Below, piece after piece: positions 41,891 to 47,395 of a stretch of 47,440 bases of DNA; position 1 is the first letter of the stretch; every line of letters begins with the position of its first letter. Location of the stretch: positions 1 to 47,440 of IMG/VR virus record IMGVR_UViG_3300010885_072353. One strand, given 5' to 3'. Under the pieces are notes generated by a model that was given only the letters and a program-made list of their open reading frames with translations, did not search any database and was not told the DNA's origin. Source of the stretch: a virus. The position numbers and the translations under genes are program-made.

Positions 41891-43204
41891 TTAATTAGAT
41901 AGAGCAGCAAGAGCATTAATGGTACTAGCGCTAGCTTCTGTATCATTTAAATGTTCATCTTCAGTAAGTGTTAATGTTGAGTAATCAATGCGGAGTACAC
42001 ATTGACCAAAGTTTTGACCAAAGCGATTCTTCATCATACCCATCTTTATAACGCCGAGCTCTCTATCTGTCGACTCTTGCCAGATGCTCATAATAACATC
42101 TGCCGTCATAGCAAGCCCTGTACTCTCCGAAATCGTCTCCATACCAGGGTCAGATATACCAAATCCACTCCTATTAACTTGCGTCGCTGTAATAATTGGG
42201 CAGTTAAAAATGTAAGTAAGTGCTCTAAGTTGTTCGGTAATCTTCTTTACCTTCTCGTAACTATTACCTTCACCAGGGTACGTTAAGAGGTTTACATAAT
42301 CGAGAACAATAGCGTCAAACTTTAACCCCTTATCTCGCATTTTCTTAATATATGACTGCAGGTAGCCAACGGTAATAGTGGAAGGAGGAAACTCCTTTAT
42401 AAGAATCTTAGCACCCGGATTATTACCTGCATATTCTTCTAGTGACTGTTTAAGTGTAGGTAACTCTGTTCTGAGCTTACTCAAAGGAATCTTAGTAAGA
42501 TTAGAACTAATTCTCTGCGCATAAATCACTTCAGGCATCTCGAGTGTAATGAGTAATACGTTCTTTCCTTGTTCGGCAATATTAATTGCTACGTTACCGA
42601 GAAAGATACTTTTACCAATATTCGTTTCACCTGTAAAAATGTAAAGAGCTCTTCCCTCTTGTAAGAACCCCCCACCAATTTTCTCGTCTAACCAAGTCCA
42701 TCCTGTGGGTATATAATTGATCTGCGAACTCAAGTTATCAACAAGCTTGTCAACATCTTCAAGTAGATCTAAGCCGAGCTCGGTAGTTAGAGAAATGTTA
42801 CATGACTCCTCAAACTTCTCAAGAATCTTCGCTGTATCCATATCAGGCTTCTCTACAACTTCAAGCATTGTATGGTATACTGCTTTCTCCTTTAAGAATG
42901 TTTCGGTATTCTGATATAGTTCGTCAGAATTCATATTCTTGTCAATGTCTTTAAATCTCTCTACTGTTTTTCTGTATGAATCTTTAAGCTCCTTAGTGAT
43001 AAGTTGAGCTTTAATCTCTGTATTTGTAGGACAAGCATTACGACGATGAAAGAAATCTTTTATAATCTCAAAGATAGGCTTAATGTCCTTGTCTTTGAAG
43101 AAGATTGGCTTTACGTAATCGACGATTGATGCGAGATAAATCTCGTCAGTCAGTGCTTTGTACACTAATACGTTTTCAAAATAATCGTGGTCGATTTTAG
43201 GCAT
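41891..43204 (-). CDS. gp41: Replicative DNA helicase gp41 (DnaB family)
   Basis: The 437-residue product is the ring helicase of the replisome; T4 gp41 has 475 residues. An N-terminal helical domain (1-160) binds the primase; the RecA-like core shows Walker A GETNIGKS (192-199), Walker B FDAIVLDYVNLL (296-307) and the motif ATQVNRSGFG, followed by the arginine-finger region KMGMMKNRFGQ. It moves 5' to 3' on the lagging strand and works with gp61 (36465) and the loader (40901). No late box is seen. A short gap of 40 bases separates it from the next small gene. Confidence 0.93.
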   Translation of the reverse strand: MPKIDHDYFENVLVYKALTDEIYLASIVDYVKPIFFKDKDIKPIFEIIKDFFHRRNACPTNTEIKAQLITKELKDSYRKTVERFKDIDKNMNSDELYQNTETFLKEKAVYHTMLEVVEKPDMDTAKILEKFEESCNISLTTELGLDLLEDVDKLVDNLSSQINYIPTGWTWLDEKIGGGFLQEGRALYIFTGETNIGKSIFLGNVAINIAEQGKNVLLITLEMPEVIYAQRISSNLTKIPLSKLRTELPTLKQSLEEYAGNNPGAKILIKEFPPSTITVGYLQSYIKKMRDKGLKFDAIVLDYVNLLTYPGEGNSYEKVKKITEQLRALTYIFNCPIITATQVNRSGFGISDPGMETISESTGLAMTADVIMSIWQESTDRELGVIKMGMMKNRFGQNFGQCVLRIDYSTLTLTEDEHLNDTEASASTINALAALSN

Positions 43205-43231: not shown

Positions 43232-43921
43232 TTAATAGCTAGCATACTCTTTAAGAAACTTTGCTTGATTTTCAGTAAATGTTTTGTCGTTCATGTCTCT
43301 TAACCCCGGAGAGTTATGATACGTTAAAATCGGTACAACTCCGAGCTTAAGTTTTTTCTTATTAGCATCCAAACAGCTCGAAAGATCGTAATGATGAAAG
43401 GTATAATTCTCATTAAATTTCCAACCTACTTCTACAGCTCTCTTTACATTCAGAGACATAAAAGCACCGTCAATAAGAGCGACTCTTGCAGGGCTTGGTC
43501 CGAAGTTTGTAATTGAAGTTGTTTTACCGTCTGGGAGATAGTGACCAGCGAATCCTCTCAAGCTGCCTCCTTGAAAACCACCGCACATTAAATGCCAGAG
43601 AGCAGGTGCTTTAAGAACAGGATTCAATCCACCTGCAAGTCCTATTAAATCATACTCTTTGTGAGCTTCTTGAAGCTTAGAAATAAACCCAGCATCGTCA
43701 ATCCACATATCATCATGTACAAAAAGTACGTAATCGTAAAATGGATTATCGTATAGGAATTTGTTATATGCCTTACCGAGACCAAGTTTGTTCTGTGTTA
43801 TAAAGTGTGTATTATCAACAAGCGTGAGATTGCTATTTTGATCAATTTTAGCTAAACTTTTATAGAGAAGCGTTTGCTTATAATCAGCAAGTTGTGTGCA
43901 GGATGCTATTCCGAATATCAT
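43232..43921 (-). CDS. Glycosyltransferase, StrF/GT2-like
   Basis: The 229-residue product has a GT-A-type fold: MIFGIASCTQL starts the nucleotide-sugar-binding strand, YVLFVHDDMWIDD (HDD at 69-71) is the metal-binding DxD-like motif, and GGLNPVLKAPALWHLMCGGF plus RVALIDGAFMSLN follow as in the StrF-type GT2 family. These enzymes move a sugar from UDP- or dTDP-type donors. In T4-like phages such enzymes may decorate virion proteins or modified DNA bases. The start overlaps the stop of the amidotransferase as ATGA, so both are translated together and may serve one pathway. The substrate cannot be told. Confidence 0.75.
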   Translation of the reverse strand: MIFGIASCTQLADYKQTLLYKSLAKIDQNSNLTLVDNTHFITQNKLGLGKAYNKFLYDNPFYDYVLFVHDDMWIDDAGFISKLQEAHKEYDLIGLAGGLNPVLKAPALWHLMCGGFQGGSLRGFAGHYLPDGKTTSITNFGPSPARVALIDGAFMSLNVKRAVEVGWKFNENYTFHHYDLSSCLDANKKKLKLGVVPILTYHNSPGLRDMNDKTFTENQAKFLKEYASY

Positions 43922-44601
43922 AGAATAAAAAAAGGAGAGTTTTTACTAAATCCGCCCACAGACGTTAACCCTTCCGTTGTGATTAGATATAAAACGCCTT
44001 CTTCAAGAGGCTTGAGATCTTCGTCGGATAGCGATGATACGGTATTCTCTAACACATTAGCATAGAGTGTACTACCAGATCTTGCTATATAAACATTGTG
44101 CGTTTCTTTATTGTAAATCCAAAGACCAAACGTACCTTCAAGCATTGATAGTACTTTACAAATTACATCTACCTCATTTTCAATCTCCTCGGAGAACTGA
44201 TCGAGAAGAGCTGGTATTACTGATGAATCAACCTCATTAAAGCTATCTTTATTTTTAATTCTCGCTTTAAGCTTAATATCGTTTGTAAGTACTCCGTTAT
44301 GCGCAACAACCCATGGTCCGTAGGTAAAAGGATGTGATGTTGTCTCATCAAAAATACGCTTCGAACTTGTAGGAGCTTGAGTATGCCCCATAAAATAATA
44401 GAACTCGGATGGCTTCATTTGTACGTCTCTATTATTCACAATCATATTCTTCGTCAGCTCTACGGTACCCTCGACTTTCATAGCTGCATCGTAGGAATGA
44501 CTTAAAAACAGGGCTCCGTATGCAAAAGTACCTCTTTCTTTATTCTTATTATAAAGCTTTATATATCTATTAAAATTACTAGCTGTAAATATACCACACA
44601 T
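43918..44601 (-). CDS. Class II glutamine amidotransferase
   Basis: The 227-residue product begins MCGIFTASNF, with the catalytic Cys2 exposed after removal of Met. Downstream are RGTFAYG, the GHTQAPT segment (as in GlmS-type GHTRWAT), VVAHNGVLTN (the Asn-Gly oxyanion pair) and VDSSVIPALLDQ. This is a free-standing Ntn-type glutaminase domain, the module that releases ammonia from glutamine for a partner synthase. No synthase domain is attached. Its partner could be QueC (45541), with which such domains are fused in archaeal and phage Gat-QueC, or another enzyme elsewhere. It is coupled to the glycosyltransferase by ATGA and has an early promoter. Confidence 0.88.
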   Translation of the reverse strand: MCGIFTASNFNRYIKLYNKNKERGTFAYGALFLSHSYDAAMKVEGTVELTKNMIVNNRDVQMKPSEFYYFMGHTQAPTSSKRIFDETTSHPFTYGPWVVAHNGVLTNDIKLKARIKNKDSFNEVDSSVIPALLDQFSEEIENEVDVICKVLSMLEGTFGLWIYNKETHNVYIARSGSTLYANVLENTVSSLSDEDLKPLEEGVLYLITTEGLTSVGGFSKNSPFFIL

Positions 44602-44610
44602 TATAGTAAT

Positions 44611-44638
44611 ATTATAGCGTTAAGAATAAATAATTCAA
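44611..44638 (-). promoter_or_regulatory. Early sigma70-like promoter for the amidotransferase
   Basis: TTGAAT (44633-44638), 16 bases and a perfect TATAAT (44611-44616) on the minus strand lie just before ATG 44601. The late plus-strand box at 44625-44632 is within its spacer. Confidence 0.7.
44625..44632 (+). promoter_or_regulatory. T4-type late promoter box AATAAATA
   Basis: AATAAATA lies 9 bases before ATG 44642, inside the spacer of the opposing early promoter. Predicted leader about 4 bases. Confidence 0.6.
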
Positions 44639-44641
44639 GAC

Positions 44642-45544
44642 ATGAATAAAGATTCTAATTTAATTTTTGAAGCCTATTGCAAGAGCCGTATGCTTAATGA
44701 AGCGCCTATTGGTGCTGAATACGAGCCTGTAGCAGCTGCAACAAGACAAGCTATAACAAGCAGAGGCGGCGATACATATTTGTTTTCAGATTTAATGAAA
44801 AAGACAGGTAAGTCTGCTGATGAGGTTGTTGAGATGATTGTCAAGCCTGTGTTTGATGCTCTCTTCCCTGGTGGTCGTTTCGACGCCGAAGGCTCTGAAA
44901 AAGAGCAGTTAAACAGCCTACAGACAGCTATTCATAGTGAACTCGTTCACCTCGGTTATCCTAAGGCTCGTGCCGGTTATACAGCTCGTATTATCAAGAA
45001 CGCCATTACACCTGCTGTAAAGTTTCTTAGTGATAAAGCTGCAGAAGGCGAAGATGTTAATCACCAAGACGTTGAAGACGCTATTGTTGATTCAATTGAA
45101 GATGCAGATGAACAATCTGGTAGTGAACTCCAGGCAGCTCCAGCGCAACATGGTCATACAGCCTCTACAGAAGATAGGGAAACAAGTGCATTAATTCAAC
45201 ACGCTGTTGATCAAGTAGGTGACGGTATAAATGAAAATGAACTCGTTGATGCGTTAAAGCAATTTGTAGTGCAGAAGGATCCCGAAATAAGCGAGGCACG
45301 AGCAACAGGCCGTGTTCGTGGTATTATCAGTAAGCTTGTCTCATCAAAAGTACTCGCTAAGAGAGGTAACATTATTGAACCAGGTGATAACGCTGATGAG
45401 TTTGCCGAGAAGGGCGATCTCTCGCTTGTATCAGCTGACCCAGAAGAGTATGCAGCTCGTGAATTCGGCGTTGGTAGTAGACCGACAACGGGCCGTCAAG
45501 TTTTCGGTGGTGAAGGTGGTCGCTACGGTGTAGACTTCGGTTAA
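44642..45544 (+). CDS. Candidate internal head protein with two LxE sites (300 aa)
   Basis: The 300-residue product begins MNKDSNLIFEAYCKSRMLNEA. Both IFE-A (8-11) and LNE-A (18-21) match the prohead-protease consensus, and the first 20 residues are basic and amphipathic. The body is Ala/Asp/Glu-rich helices; residues about 198-245 (ELVDALKQFVVQ to RGIISKLVSSKVLAKRG) look like a winged-helix DNA-binding unit. The C-terminus is Gly/Arg-rich (GRQVFGGEGGRYG). It is a late gene placed alone and antisense to the early operon, and its stop overlaps queC by 4 bases. A packaged DNA-binding protein is inferred; no homologue is recognised. Confidence 0.6.
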   Translation: MNKDSNLIFEAYCKSRMLNEAPIGAEYEPVAAATRQAITSRGGDTYLFSDLMKKTGKSADEVVEMIVKPVFDALFPGGRFDAEGSEKEQLNSLQTAIHSELVHLGYPKARAGYTARIIKNAITPAVKFLSDKAAEGEDVNHQDVEDAIVDSIEDADEQSGSELQAAPAQHGHTASTEDRETSALIQHAVDQVGDGINENELVDALKQFVVQKDPEISEARATGRVRGIISKLVSSKVLAKRGNIIEPGDNADEFAEKGDLSLVSADPEEYAAREFGVGSRPTTGRQVFGGEGGRYGVDFG

Positions 45545-46275
45545 GTCAGCAATCTATCCCAAGGGATATCTTTTGAATAGGCTAGCGGATCTTTAATACC
45601 AGCCTGTATAAATCCCTGTAATCTCAAAGAACACGCTGTACATTCACCGCACGCAAGATCTAATCCTTCGTAGCAAGTCCATGTGCGACTAAAGTCGACA
45701 CCAAGTTCGATCCCCATTTCAATAATTTCTTTCTTGGATTTATTAATCAATGGAGCTTCGACTTTTATCCTGTTTCTCCTGTTAAGAGTAGTGACATCGT
45801 TGATTGCAGTTAGAAACTCTGGTGACCCATCCCAGTATCCTGCAACACTATCCGCTTGAGCTGCTCCGTGGTACACAGTCGTTGCACCGAATTGCTCTGC
45901 GAACGAGCAAGCTATACTTAAAAGCATCATATTCCTGAAAGGCACGTAGTTTACCGTTTGCGGGTCACCCATGACATCCTTCGCCTTAGCAACGTCAATC
46001 TCTCGGTTGAGCAGGGCAGAATTCTTGATCAAATTAAAAAACGGCAACTCAACTACTGTGTTAAAATAGACGTTTTTTTCGTCATCTCCCTCACGAATCA
46101 CATTAATTTGATAATCTGCGTACTCAAGCTCCTTCTTGTGTCTCTGACCGTAGTCAAATGAAATTGCGTAGACGTTATCAAAATTAGCCGCGGCGTAATG
46201 GAGTAGCACTGTGCTATCCATACCACCGGAAATCGGTACAATTACCTTAGATTTAATGTTATTCTCCTTGCTCAT
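45541..46275 (-). CDS. queC: 7-cyano-7-deazaguanine synthase QueC
   Basis: The 244-residue product, from ATG 46275, is QueC, which converts 7-carboxy-7-deazaguanine, ammonia and ATP to preQ0. The PP-loop is SGGMDS (16-21), followed by DYGQRHKKEL, and the zinc site is C201, C209, C212 and C215 (CGECTAC). A TTG at 46290 could extend it by five residues but lies inside uvsX. Complete length. Early partners FolE, QueD and QueE, and the DNA transglycosylase DpdA, are not in the window. In phages preQ0 is often used to modify DNA against restriction. It probably shares the uvsX message. Confidence 0.95.
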   Translation of the reverse strand: MSKENNIKSKVIVPISGGMDSTVLLHYAAANFDNVYAISFDYGQRHKKELEYADYQINVIREGDDEKNVYFNTVVELPFFNLIKNSALLNREIDVAKAKDVMGDPQTVNYVPFRNMMLLSIACSFAEQFGATTVYHGAAQADSVAGYWDGSPEFLTAINDVTTLNRRNRIKVEAPLINKSKKEIIEMGIELGVDFSRTWTCYEGLDLACGECTACSLRLQGFIQAGIKDPLAYSKDIPWDRLLT

Positions 46276-47395
46276 CAGAAATTGCTGCAAGCTCGTCTTC
46301 CACGGTTGGATTAGCGTTGTACTTGTAGTCCTCTGCTAGCTTCTTGTCAAGCTCTGGAATAATAAAGTCCTCGAAGAACGATGCATCCTTAACGAAATTC
46401 TTAGCATATCCGAGTTTATCACCCTTCTTATACTTACCGCAGTCGACACCGACAAGATACGTAGATCCAGTTTGCTCAACAATGCCACGAGCAGCTGCCA
46501 TCTGTAGTAACCCACTATACTTGTTAAGTCCTGACTTAAACGATAGGTACATTTCTGCCTCTAAAAACGGTGGTACAAAGCGATTCTTGACAGTTAACGC
46601 ACGAAGTGTTACTCCTGAGTATTTGTTAGCTTCAGCAAGCTTATCCGTCTTAAGACTGCCTGAATCACCTTCACCCTCCTTCTCGTTACGCTTTGCAAGC
46701 TGTACCAAGATACTAGCCATATATACAGGTCCGGACCCGCCAGACTGTGTTTTTACGAGTGTTGGAAACATAGCACCGGGATCGGAGTAGGTGTGGTTGG
46801 TAAACATAATCGTTACACCGGCCTTGCCTGCCTTGTAGGTAAGAGTGCGAAGCATTGACTTAAGCGATTTAGCGCGAAGACCCATATCCATAGCAGATTT
46901 ATCCTTAGCAATGTCATCGATTTCCTTTTGTGATGACAGGTTACCGAGACTGTCAATACTAATAATAAACTTACCTTGCTGATTGCTTTCGATGACACTA
47001 TCAAGGAATCCTGAAATCTGATTACGGCATTGATCAACTGTGTAAACAGGTACATATTTTGTCTTACTAGCATCAAGACCTACTCCTTTCGTTGAGCTCT
47101 CGTCAATAGCAAACTCTGTATCAAAAATAACAGGAATGACGCCTTGCTTCTGAGCATTAGCGAGAATCTTATTTACAACAAAAGTCTTACCAGTCATCGA
47201 TTCACCTGAGAATCCTACAATTCTACCCTTAGGTATACCGCCTTTGCGGCAGCTACCACCTAAAATAGCATTAAGAGCATAACAGCCTGTATCGTACCAG
47301 GTATCAACATTTGACAACGCATTTTCATCTAGCATTGTTGCTTCATTGTTCATTGCGTCAAGTTTCTTAAAGATGTTATCAATTTCTTTGCTCAT
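46259..47395 (-). CDS. uvsX: RecA-family recombinase UvsX
   Basis: The 378-residue product is the strand-exchange recombinase of T4 type (UvsX, 391 residues). Walker A is GESMTGKT (64-71) and Walker B is FIISIDSLG (143-151). The segment TNHTYSDPGAMFPTLVKTQS corresponds to the DNA-binding loop region of UvsX. It drives recombination-dependent replication and repair with gp32 and the gp41 loader. The gene carries the strongest early promoter, TTGAAA-16-TATAAT. Its acidic C-terminus overlaps queC by 17 bases. The start ATG 47395 is supported by promoter position. No oddities seen. Confidence 0.95.
   Translation of the reverse strand: MSKEIDNIFKKLDAMNNEATMLDENALSNVDTWYDTGCYALNAILGGSCRKGGIPKGRIVGFSGESMTGKTFVVNKILANAQKQGVIPVIFDTEFAIDESSTKGVGLDASKTKYVPVYTVDQCRNQISGFLDSVIESNQQGKFIISIDSLGNLSSQKEIDDIAKDKSAMDMGLRAKSLKSMLRTLTYKAGKAGVTIMFTNHTYSDPGAMFPTLVKTQSGGSGPVYMASILVQLAKRNEKEGEGDSGSLKTDKLAEANKYSGVTLRALTVKNRFVPPFLEAEMYLSFKSGLNKYSGLLQMAAARGIVEQTGSTYLVGVDCGKYKKGDKLGYAKNFVKDASFFEDFIIPELDKKLAEDYKYNANPTVEDELAAISDEQGE

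Follow-up and report, generated by a model that had tools for sequence, protein, structure and literature searches.

We interpret the queC gene and a nearby, separately encoded class II glutaminase gene of a T4-like freshwater phage as a predicted two-subunit preQ0 synthase that feeds a phage DNA-modification pathway with a probable formyl-preQ1 base, a reading to which we give a probability of roughly 0.52. The window, that is, the whole 47,440-nucleotide stretch of DNA analysed, is a fragment of this phage whose sequence stops just beyond uvsX. The role of the system is most likely DNA modification, in which guanines would be swapped for modified 7-deazaguanines, with the glutaminase most likely feeding ammonia to QueC. 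The observations behind this reading concern gene content, conserved linkage, catalytic residues and protein folds. The locus and its context genes in the window comprise the following features:

41891 to 43204, minus strand: DnaB-like helicase (gp41), downstream of the glycosyltransferase gene; PF03796, E=5.7e-27.
43232 to 43921, minus strand: glycosyltransferase-like gene; PF13712, E=4.8e-9, with the HDD and other motifs kept.
43918 to 44601, minus strand: class II (Ntn) glutaminase, free-standing, 227 aa; GATase_6/7, phrog_12378.
44611 to 44638, minus strand: promoter-like site of the glutaminase gene, TTGAAT-16-TATAAT, from a consensus scan only.
44642 to 45544, plus strand: gene for a 300-aa protein between the queC and glutaminase genes; no significant family match.
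45541 to 46275, minus strand: QueC (preQ0 synthase), 244 aa; PF06508, E=1.1e-59.
46259 to 47395, minus strand: UvsX recombinase, the context gene upstream of queC; RecA PF00154, E=2.7e-24, phrog_97.

An earlier note on this DNA had described QueC with a separate class II glutaminase 0.9 kb away on the same strand, and the gene positions confirmed this, the two genes being 939 bp apart and both on the minus strand. The coupling of the glutaminase gene to that of the glycosyltransferase was likewise verified, as the two overlap through an ATGA (4 bp, positions 43918-43921). In the window lineage the glutaminase is coupled more tightly to the glycosyltransferase than to queC, which counts against a partnership with QueC. 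The start codon of queC (ATG at 46275-46273, with the stop at 45541, minus strand) lies inside the end of uvsX, with an overlap of 17 nt. The 300-aa protein could not be placed in a known family, its single weak Pfam match falling under the cut-off; its gene has the same place in closer relatives, and in other loci queC and the glutaminase gene adjoin.

The earlier note had also assigned queC and the glutaminase gene the same early promoter type. The glutaminase site does resemble the promoter-like site of uvsX (TTGAAA-16-TATAAT at 47432-47405), but that part of the claim did not extend to queC, for which the consensus scan identified no promoter of its own. The region contained five promoter-like sites versus 11.2 in shuffled sequences, that is, fewer than expected.

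Compared with the published catalytic signature motifs of QueC (PMC13329287), the window protein keeps SGGMDS, YGQRHKKE and VPFRN, as well as the Cys4 zinc motif, in which the first Cys is followed by Tyr. The canonical substrate motif YPDC is replaced by YWDG, with the Tyr and Asp retained. All QueC proteins of the split group (88/88) have YWD, FWD or FYD at this motif; the canonical YPDC was present in four phage QueC proteins without a glutaminase, and the Gat-QueC fusions have YPDN. The QueC of Campylobacter phage CC_R7 is also of the YWD type found in the window (YWDT), though no such glutaminase was found there.

The window glutaminase begins with MCGIF, and its GATase_6 match (E=2e-8) passes the cut-off. 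It has the traits of a class II enzyme, namely an N-terminal Cys2, the oxyanion pair Asn102-Gly103, Asp125 and an Ntn fold, and Cys2, R23-G24, H101-N102-G103 and D125 are conserved across its family. The structural model (pLDDT 91.9) matched the folds of the GlmS, PurF and EgtC glutaminases. At the position of GlmS R73, which binds the carboxylate of glutamine, the window protein and nearly all its relatives have Gln, with Arg found in two loci (L083 and L087), and this replacement suggests that the enzyme may act on an amide other than glutamine. The Gat-QueC of phage 9g retains the carboxylate-binding Arg (RAEPTT).

The Gln at this position, within an HxQAPT motif, is common to the window glutaminase family and that of KVP40, a shared oddity that argues for a common origin of the two. 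In profile scoring the Gat-QueC fusions reached 27.8-38.8 bits, GlmS 53.6 bits and the split glutaminases of the KVP40-group 49.7-93.9 bits. In addition, hhalign gave a probability of 99.6 for the window glutaminase against the KVP40-group, and the window protein matched phrog_12378, the family of KVP40-like glutaminases. Judged by these sequence comparisons, the window glutaminase groups with the KVP40-group and shows no specific kinship to the Gat domain of the fusions. In phrog_10428, apparently a family of fused Gat-QueC proteins, the window QueC matched one half and the window glutaminase the other. A search for a cellular source of the split glutaminase returned only four weak bacterial matches, none of them convincing.

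The glutaminase was identified in 41 of 44 QueC-bearing viral records. Linkage was counted with a profile made from split glutaminases only, an earlier iterative profile having absorbed the 9g Gat-QueC and then QueC itself. With this profile, the glutaminase gene was found downstream of queC on the same strand in 62/62 loci with at least 3.2 kb downstream of queC; these represent 58 distinct contigs once four contigs fetched twice are removed, and some others may be near-identical. The gap between the two genes was 15 bp or less, or the genes overlapped, in 23 of the 78 cases measured, and the remaining gaps mostly fit one extra gene. The linkage persisted down to 32% identity.

Most of these loci have a common uvsX-gp41 context, with the gp41-type helicase gene directly 3' of the glycosyltransferase gene in 58/60 loci, so the linkage there could be inherited. 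In L083 and L087, however, the pair is linked and uvsX and gp41 are not nearby. In about 50 isolated phages, among them KVP40, nt-1, pf16 and Vibrio phage 2.275.O, the glutaminase gene adjoins queC in other contexts and is mostly annotated as "hypothetical". The split pairs include KVP40.0124/0125 (1-bp overlap), nt-1 VPFG_00172/00173, NVP2275O_472/473 of phage 2.275.O, and pf16 gp78/gp77, which is near the DNA polymerase gene; in KVP40-like phages the pair sits in the folE/dpdA2/queF region. The pairing of queC and the glutaminase gene, which extends over many aquatic phages, is far beyond chance, and its recurrence in the window-type loci and in isolates with other contexts supported the proposal that the glutaminase belongs with QueC. 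The two-gene arrangement, put forward in the earlier note as something that would be new, is not entirely so, as the isolates already have it; judged against the open literature, it has gone unremarked.

Searches of the 47 kb window fragment for FolE, QueD and DpdA-type genes gave no match. Three relatives (G001, G003 and G005) show synteny to the window over nearly its whole length, and genes for all five of FolE, QueD, QueE, QueF and a DpdA-like protein were identified in each of five relatives, including G001 and G005; we infer that the genome of the window phage also has them. The QueE of the close relatives (phrog_2076) was missed by PF04055 and recovered by PHROGs. Their QueF looked intact, with the ESKS motif, the active-site Cys and FHE. 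A second operon in the relatives has the order DpdA-like protein, formyltransferase (PF00551, E=1.8e-17), a small protein (phrog_1485), a thymidylate-kinase-like protein and QueF. Among the 71 DpdA-like loci found, 59 had at least 3.5 kb downstream, and in these the formyltransferase was present in 48/59, the kinase in 57/59 and QueF in 51/59.

Searches of the relatives with PF01702 (TGT) and DpdA2 (phrog_10773) gave no match. The resulting view that the relatives had no transglycosylase was overturned when a Campylobacter phage protein encoded beside QueC, used as the query, found a small DpdA-like family (phrog_19058), which has members in Campylobacter phage CP220 and directly after queC in CC_R7. 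The model of the relatives' protein (pLDDT 92.7) had its best PDB matches to the TGT structures 2pwu (E=5.5e-7) and 3bld, and also matched the DNA preQ0 insertase DpdA (7ui4, E=9e-5). From its modelled fold, this small protein is a predicted transglycosylase of the TGT/DpdA superfamily. The DNA of CP220 was reported to contain dADG (PMC8306585). Another candidate for DpdA, a 412-aa neighbour of the DNA polymerase, turned out to be a glycosyltransferase.

Together, the pathway genes of the relatives (FolE, QueD, QueE, QueF and the DpdA-type transglycosylase), the TGT/DpdA fold and the family member in CP220 make a role in DNA modification well supported. The earlier note had stated that such a role would be refuted if the complete genome lacked DpdA and the other genes of deazaguanine synthesis. 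In the relatives FolE, QueD, QueE, QueF and the DpdA-type gene are present, so the objection fails as far as the relatives tell.

Based on these genes, GTP would be converted to preQ0 through FolE, QueD, QueE and QueC. The glutaminase would split glutamine, or an amide like it, to free ammonia. QueC, as its putative physical partner, would use that ammonia to convert 7-carboxy-7-deazaguanine to preQ0. QueF would convert preQ0 to preQ1, and the small DpdA-type transglycosylase would put the base into DNA. The operon formyltransferase would then probably N-formylate it, giving 7-(formylamino)methyl-7-deazaguanine; taken together, QueF and the formyltransferase suggest that the base is of the preQ1 type and may carry an N-formyl group. 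In 2023, Cui et al. reportedly described phage DNA containing formyl-preQ1 and methyl-preQ1, along with additional DpdA subfamilies, and their fdPreQ1 DNA is said to involve DpdA, preQ1 and a formyltransferase, as predicted for the window lineage. Relative to that system the window lineage adds a glutaminase and a glycosyltransferase, and its base is predicted from genes.

Two points count against such a role of the glutaminase: bacterial QueC uses free ammonia, and phage phi47:1 has QueF and QueC without a glutaminase, indicating that preQ1 can be made without one. In a pathway of this kind, supplying ammonia for the synthesis of preQ0 is nevertheless the best reading of a glutaminase next to QueC. 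A parallel is the two-subunit archaeal GMP synthase (PMC13329287), in which a glutaminase subunit with a gene of its own likewise works with an ATP-pyrophosphatase subunit; the likeness is one of analogy only, as the GMP synthase has a class I glutaminase (PF00117) and XMP as its substrate.

Two groups of phages share parts of the predicted system. The KVP40- and pf16-like pairs resemble that of the window in having a separate QueC and class II glutaminase in the same order, HxQAPT and a YWD-type QueC. Unlike in the window, their glutaminase gene is directly beside queC and has no annotated glycosyltransferase gene coupled to it. FolE is part of their clusters, most of which also have QueF together with DpdA2 or a different TGT-like protein, in contrast to the small DpdA-like enzyme of the window's relatives; a formyltransferase was searched for in these phages and not found. 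CP220 and CC_R7 share with the window's relatives the small DpdA-like family, encoded beside a kinase gene. Neither a glutaminase of the window family nor a formyltransferase was found in CP220 or CC_R7, and the base reported for CP220 is dADG, whereas a preQ1-type base is predicted for the window lineage.

The earlier note had raised a possible split Gat-QueC that would convert preQ0 to an amidine base. A split Gat-QueC for archaeosine, in which QueC and the glutaminase would turn preQ0, free or in DNA, into the amidine G+, is an explanation we consider unlikely. The 9g fusion has the same two activities and makes dG+ (PMC6884629), and Gat-QueC of 9g and archaea, like the window pair, combines a class II glutaminase with QueC in a 7-deazaguanine pathway. 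In addition, the available part of the nt-1 study gives, per million nucleotides, 44 dG+, 232 dPreQ0 and 72 dADG for the DNA of this phage, which has the split pair. There, however, dG+ is a minor base and is credited to ArcS, and VPFG_00173 is unmentioned in that part of the study. The fusions also have the glutaminase N-terminal on one polypeptide, as opposed to two genes in the window, their Gat domain is only remotely similar to the window glutaminase, and their QueC motif is YPDN rather than YWDG. By the scores given above the split glutaminase is closer to GlmS than to the fused Gat, and it is without the Arg of RAEPTT. No QueF is annotated in the cluster of 9g, for which dG+ is the known Gat-QueC product, whereas QueF occurs in the window lineage together with a formyltransferase, fitting reduction of preQ0 to an amine. 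An amidine product was not supported, as the base expected from QueF and the formyltransferase is of the preQ1 type and the glutaminase shows no special likeness to the Gat half of the fusions.

Less probable again is that the glycosyltransferase, rather than QueC, is the partner of the glutaminase, and that the two make or attach an amidated or amino sugar, possibly on the modified base or on a host or virion glycan. The ATGA overlap of the two genes is exactly 4 bp in 75/76 loci and is kept even where genes separate queC from the glutaminase, which is consistent with such a role. No sugar-amidating synthase was found, however, and the queC-glutaminase pairs of KVP40, nt-1, pf16 and 2.275.O have no annotated glycosyltransferase alongside, indicating that QueC is the more general partner. 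If the pair is a glutamine-fed preQ0 synthase, as we prefer, the glycosyltransferase may act on the modified base or on something else. That it and the formyltransferase act on one DNA base, yielding a new sugar- and formyl-decorated preQ1-derived 7-deazaguanine at possibly many or all guanines, is a speculation we regard as improbable. Least likely, QueC would serve host tRNA queuosine beside an unrelated glutaminase: QueF and the preQ0 genes would raise tRNA queuosine too, with TGT and QueA perhaps supplied by the host, but in the relatives a TGT/DpdA-fold enzyme shares an operon with QueF, and the linkage of the glutaminase gene to queC recurs in unrelated contexts.

If a two-subunit preQ0 synthase is the correct reading, a conserved but unannotated partner of QueC in many phages, the model phages KVP40 and nt-1 among them, would account for the nitrogen of preQ0 during infection. 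With the split pair, the question of whether preQ0 or G+ is the product of Gat partners can be tested directly, and the pair is a candidate, as an alternative to ArcS, for the origin of dADG and dG+ in nt-1 DNA. These findings also draw attention to a T4-like group, abundant in fresh and marine waters, that probably has modified DNA and may consequently resist restriction and be under-sampled.

The canonical YPDC motif of QueC is replaced by a YWD-like motif in the QueC proteins of these T4-like phages (window:45541-46275 and its relatives). The QueC of Campylobacter phage CC_R7 also has a YWD-like motif, and a search of that phage for the window-family glutaminase did not find one. The interval between queC and the glutaminase gene in the window is occupied by an oppositely oriented gene:

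window:44642-45544, strand opposite to both neighbors, 300-aa protein

This gene was shared with the window's closer relatives; many other contigs had a different stretch of ~0.9 kb at this position, and some further contigs had no intervening stretch.

Two relatives syntenic with the window, G005 and G001, differed in their FolE and QueE genes:

L098:10166-10813, FolE, G005
L098:16175-16999, QueE, G005
L091:3666-4316, FolE, G001
L090:18614-19366, QueE, G001

As the similarity of these genes between the two relatives was far lower than that of the flanking genes, the sequences suggest that individual pathway genes have been replaced. The terminase large subunit gene also varied:

window:30442-32163, uninterrupted
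L096:15834-19897, interrupted, G005

In relative G003 this gene is in two pieces, and the interruption in both relatives resembles that caused by an intron, an intein or an inserted endonuclease gene.

Additional genes accompany the deazaguanine genes in relatives:

L100:8449-9000, AAA_28/thymidylate-kinase-like, within the DpdA-like/QueF operon
L098:17031-17783, second such gene, near QueE
L100:9017-9364, phrog_1485 small protein, same operon as the DpdA-like, kinase and QueF genes

The operon contained the kinase-like gene at 57 of 59 loci, and base exchange offers no evident role for such a kinase. The phrog_1485 protein (44/59 loci) has weak similarity to DUF1599 (nucleotide modification associated domain 1).

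In phages KVP40 and nt-1, a class II glutaminase gene lies immediately 3' of queC:

L107:8723-9331, KVP40.0125
L109:8001-8609, nt-1 VPFG_00173

Both phages are well studied, and both products are annotated as hypothetical. Such a glutaminase is a candidate source of the dG+/dADG chemistry in nt-1.
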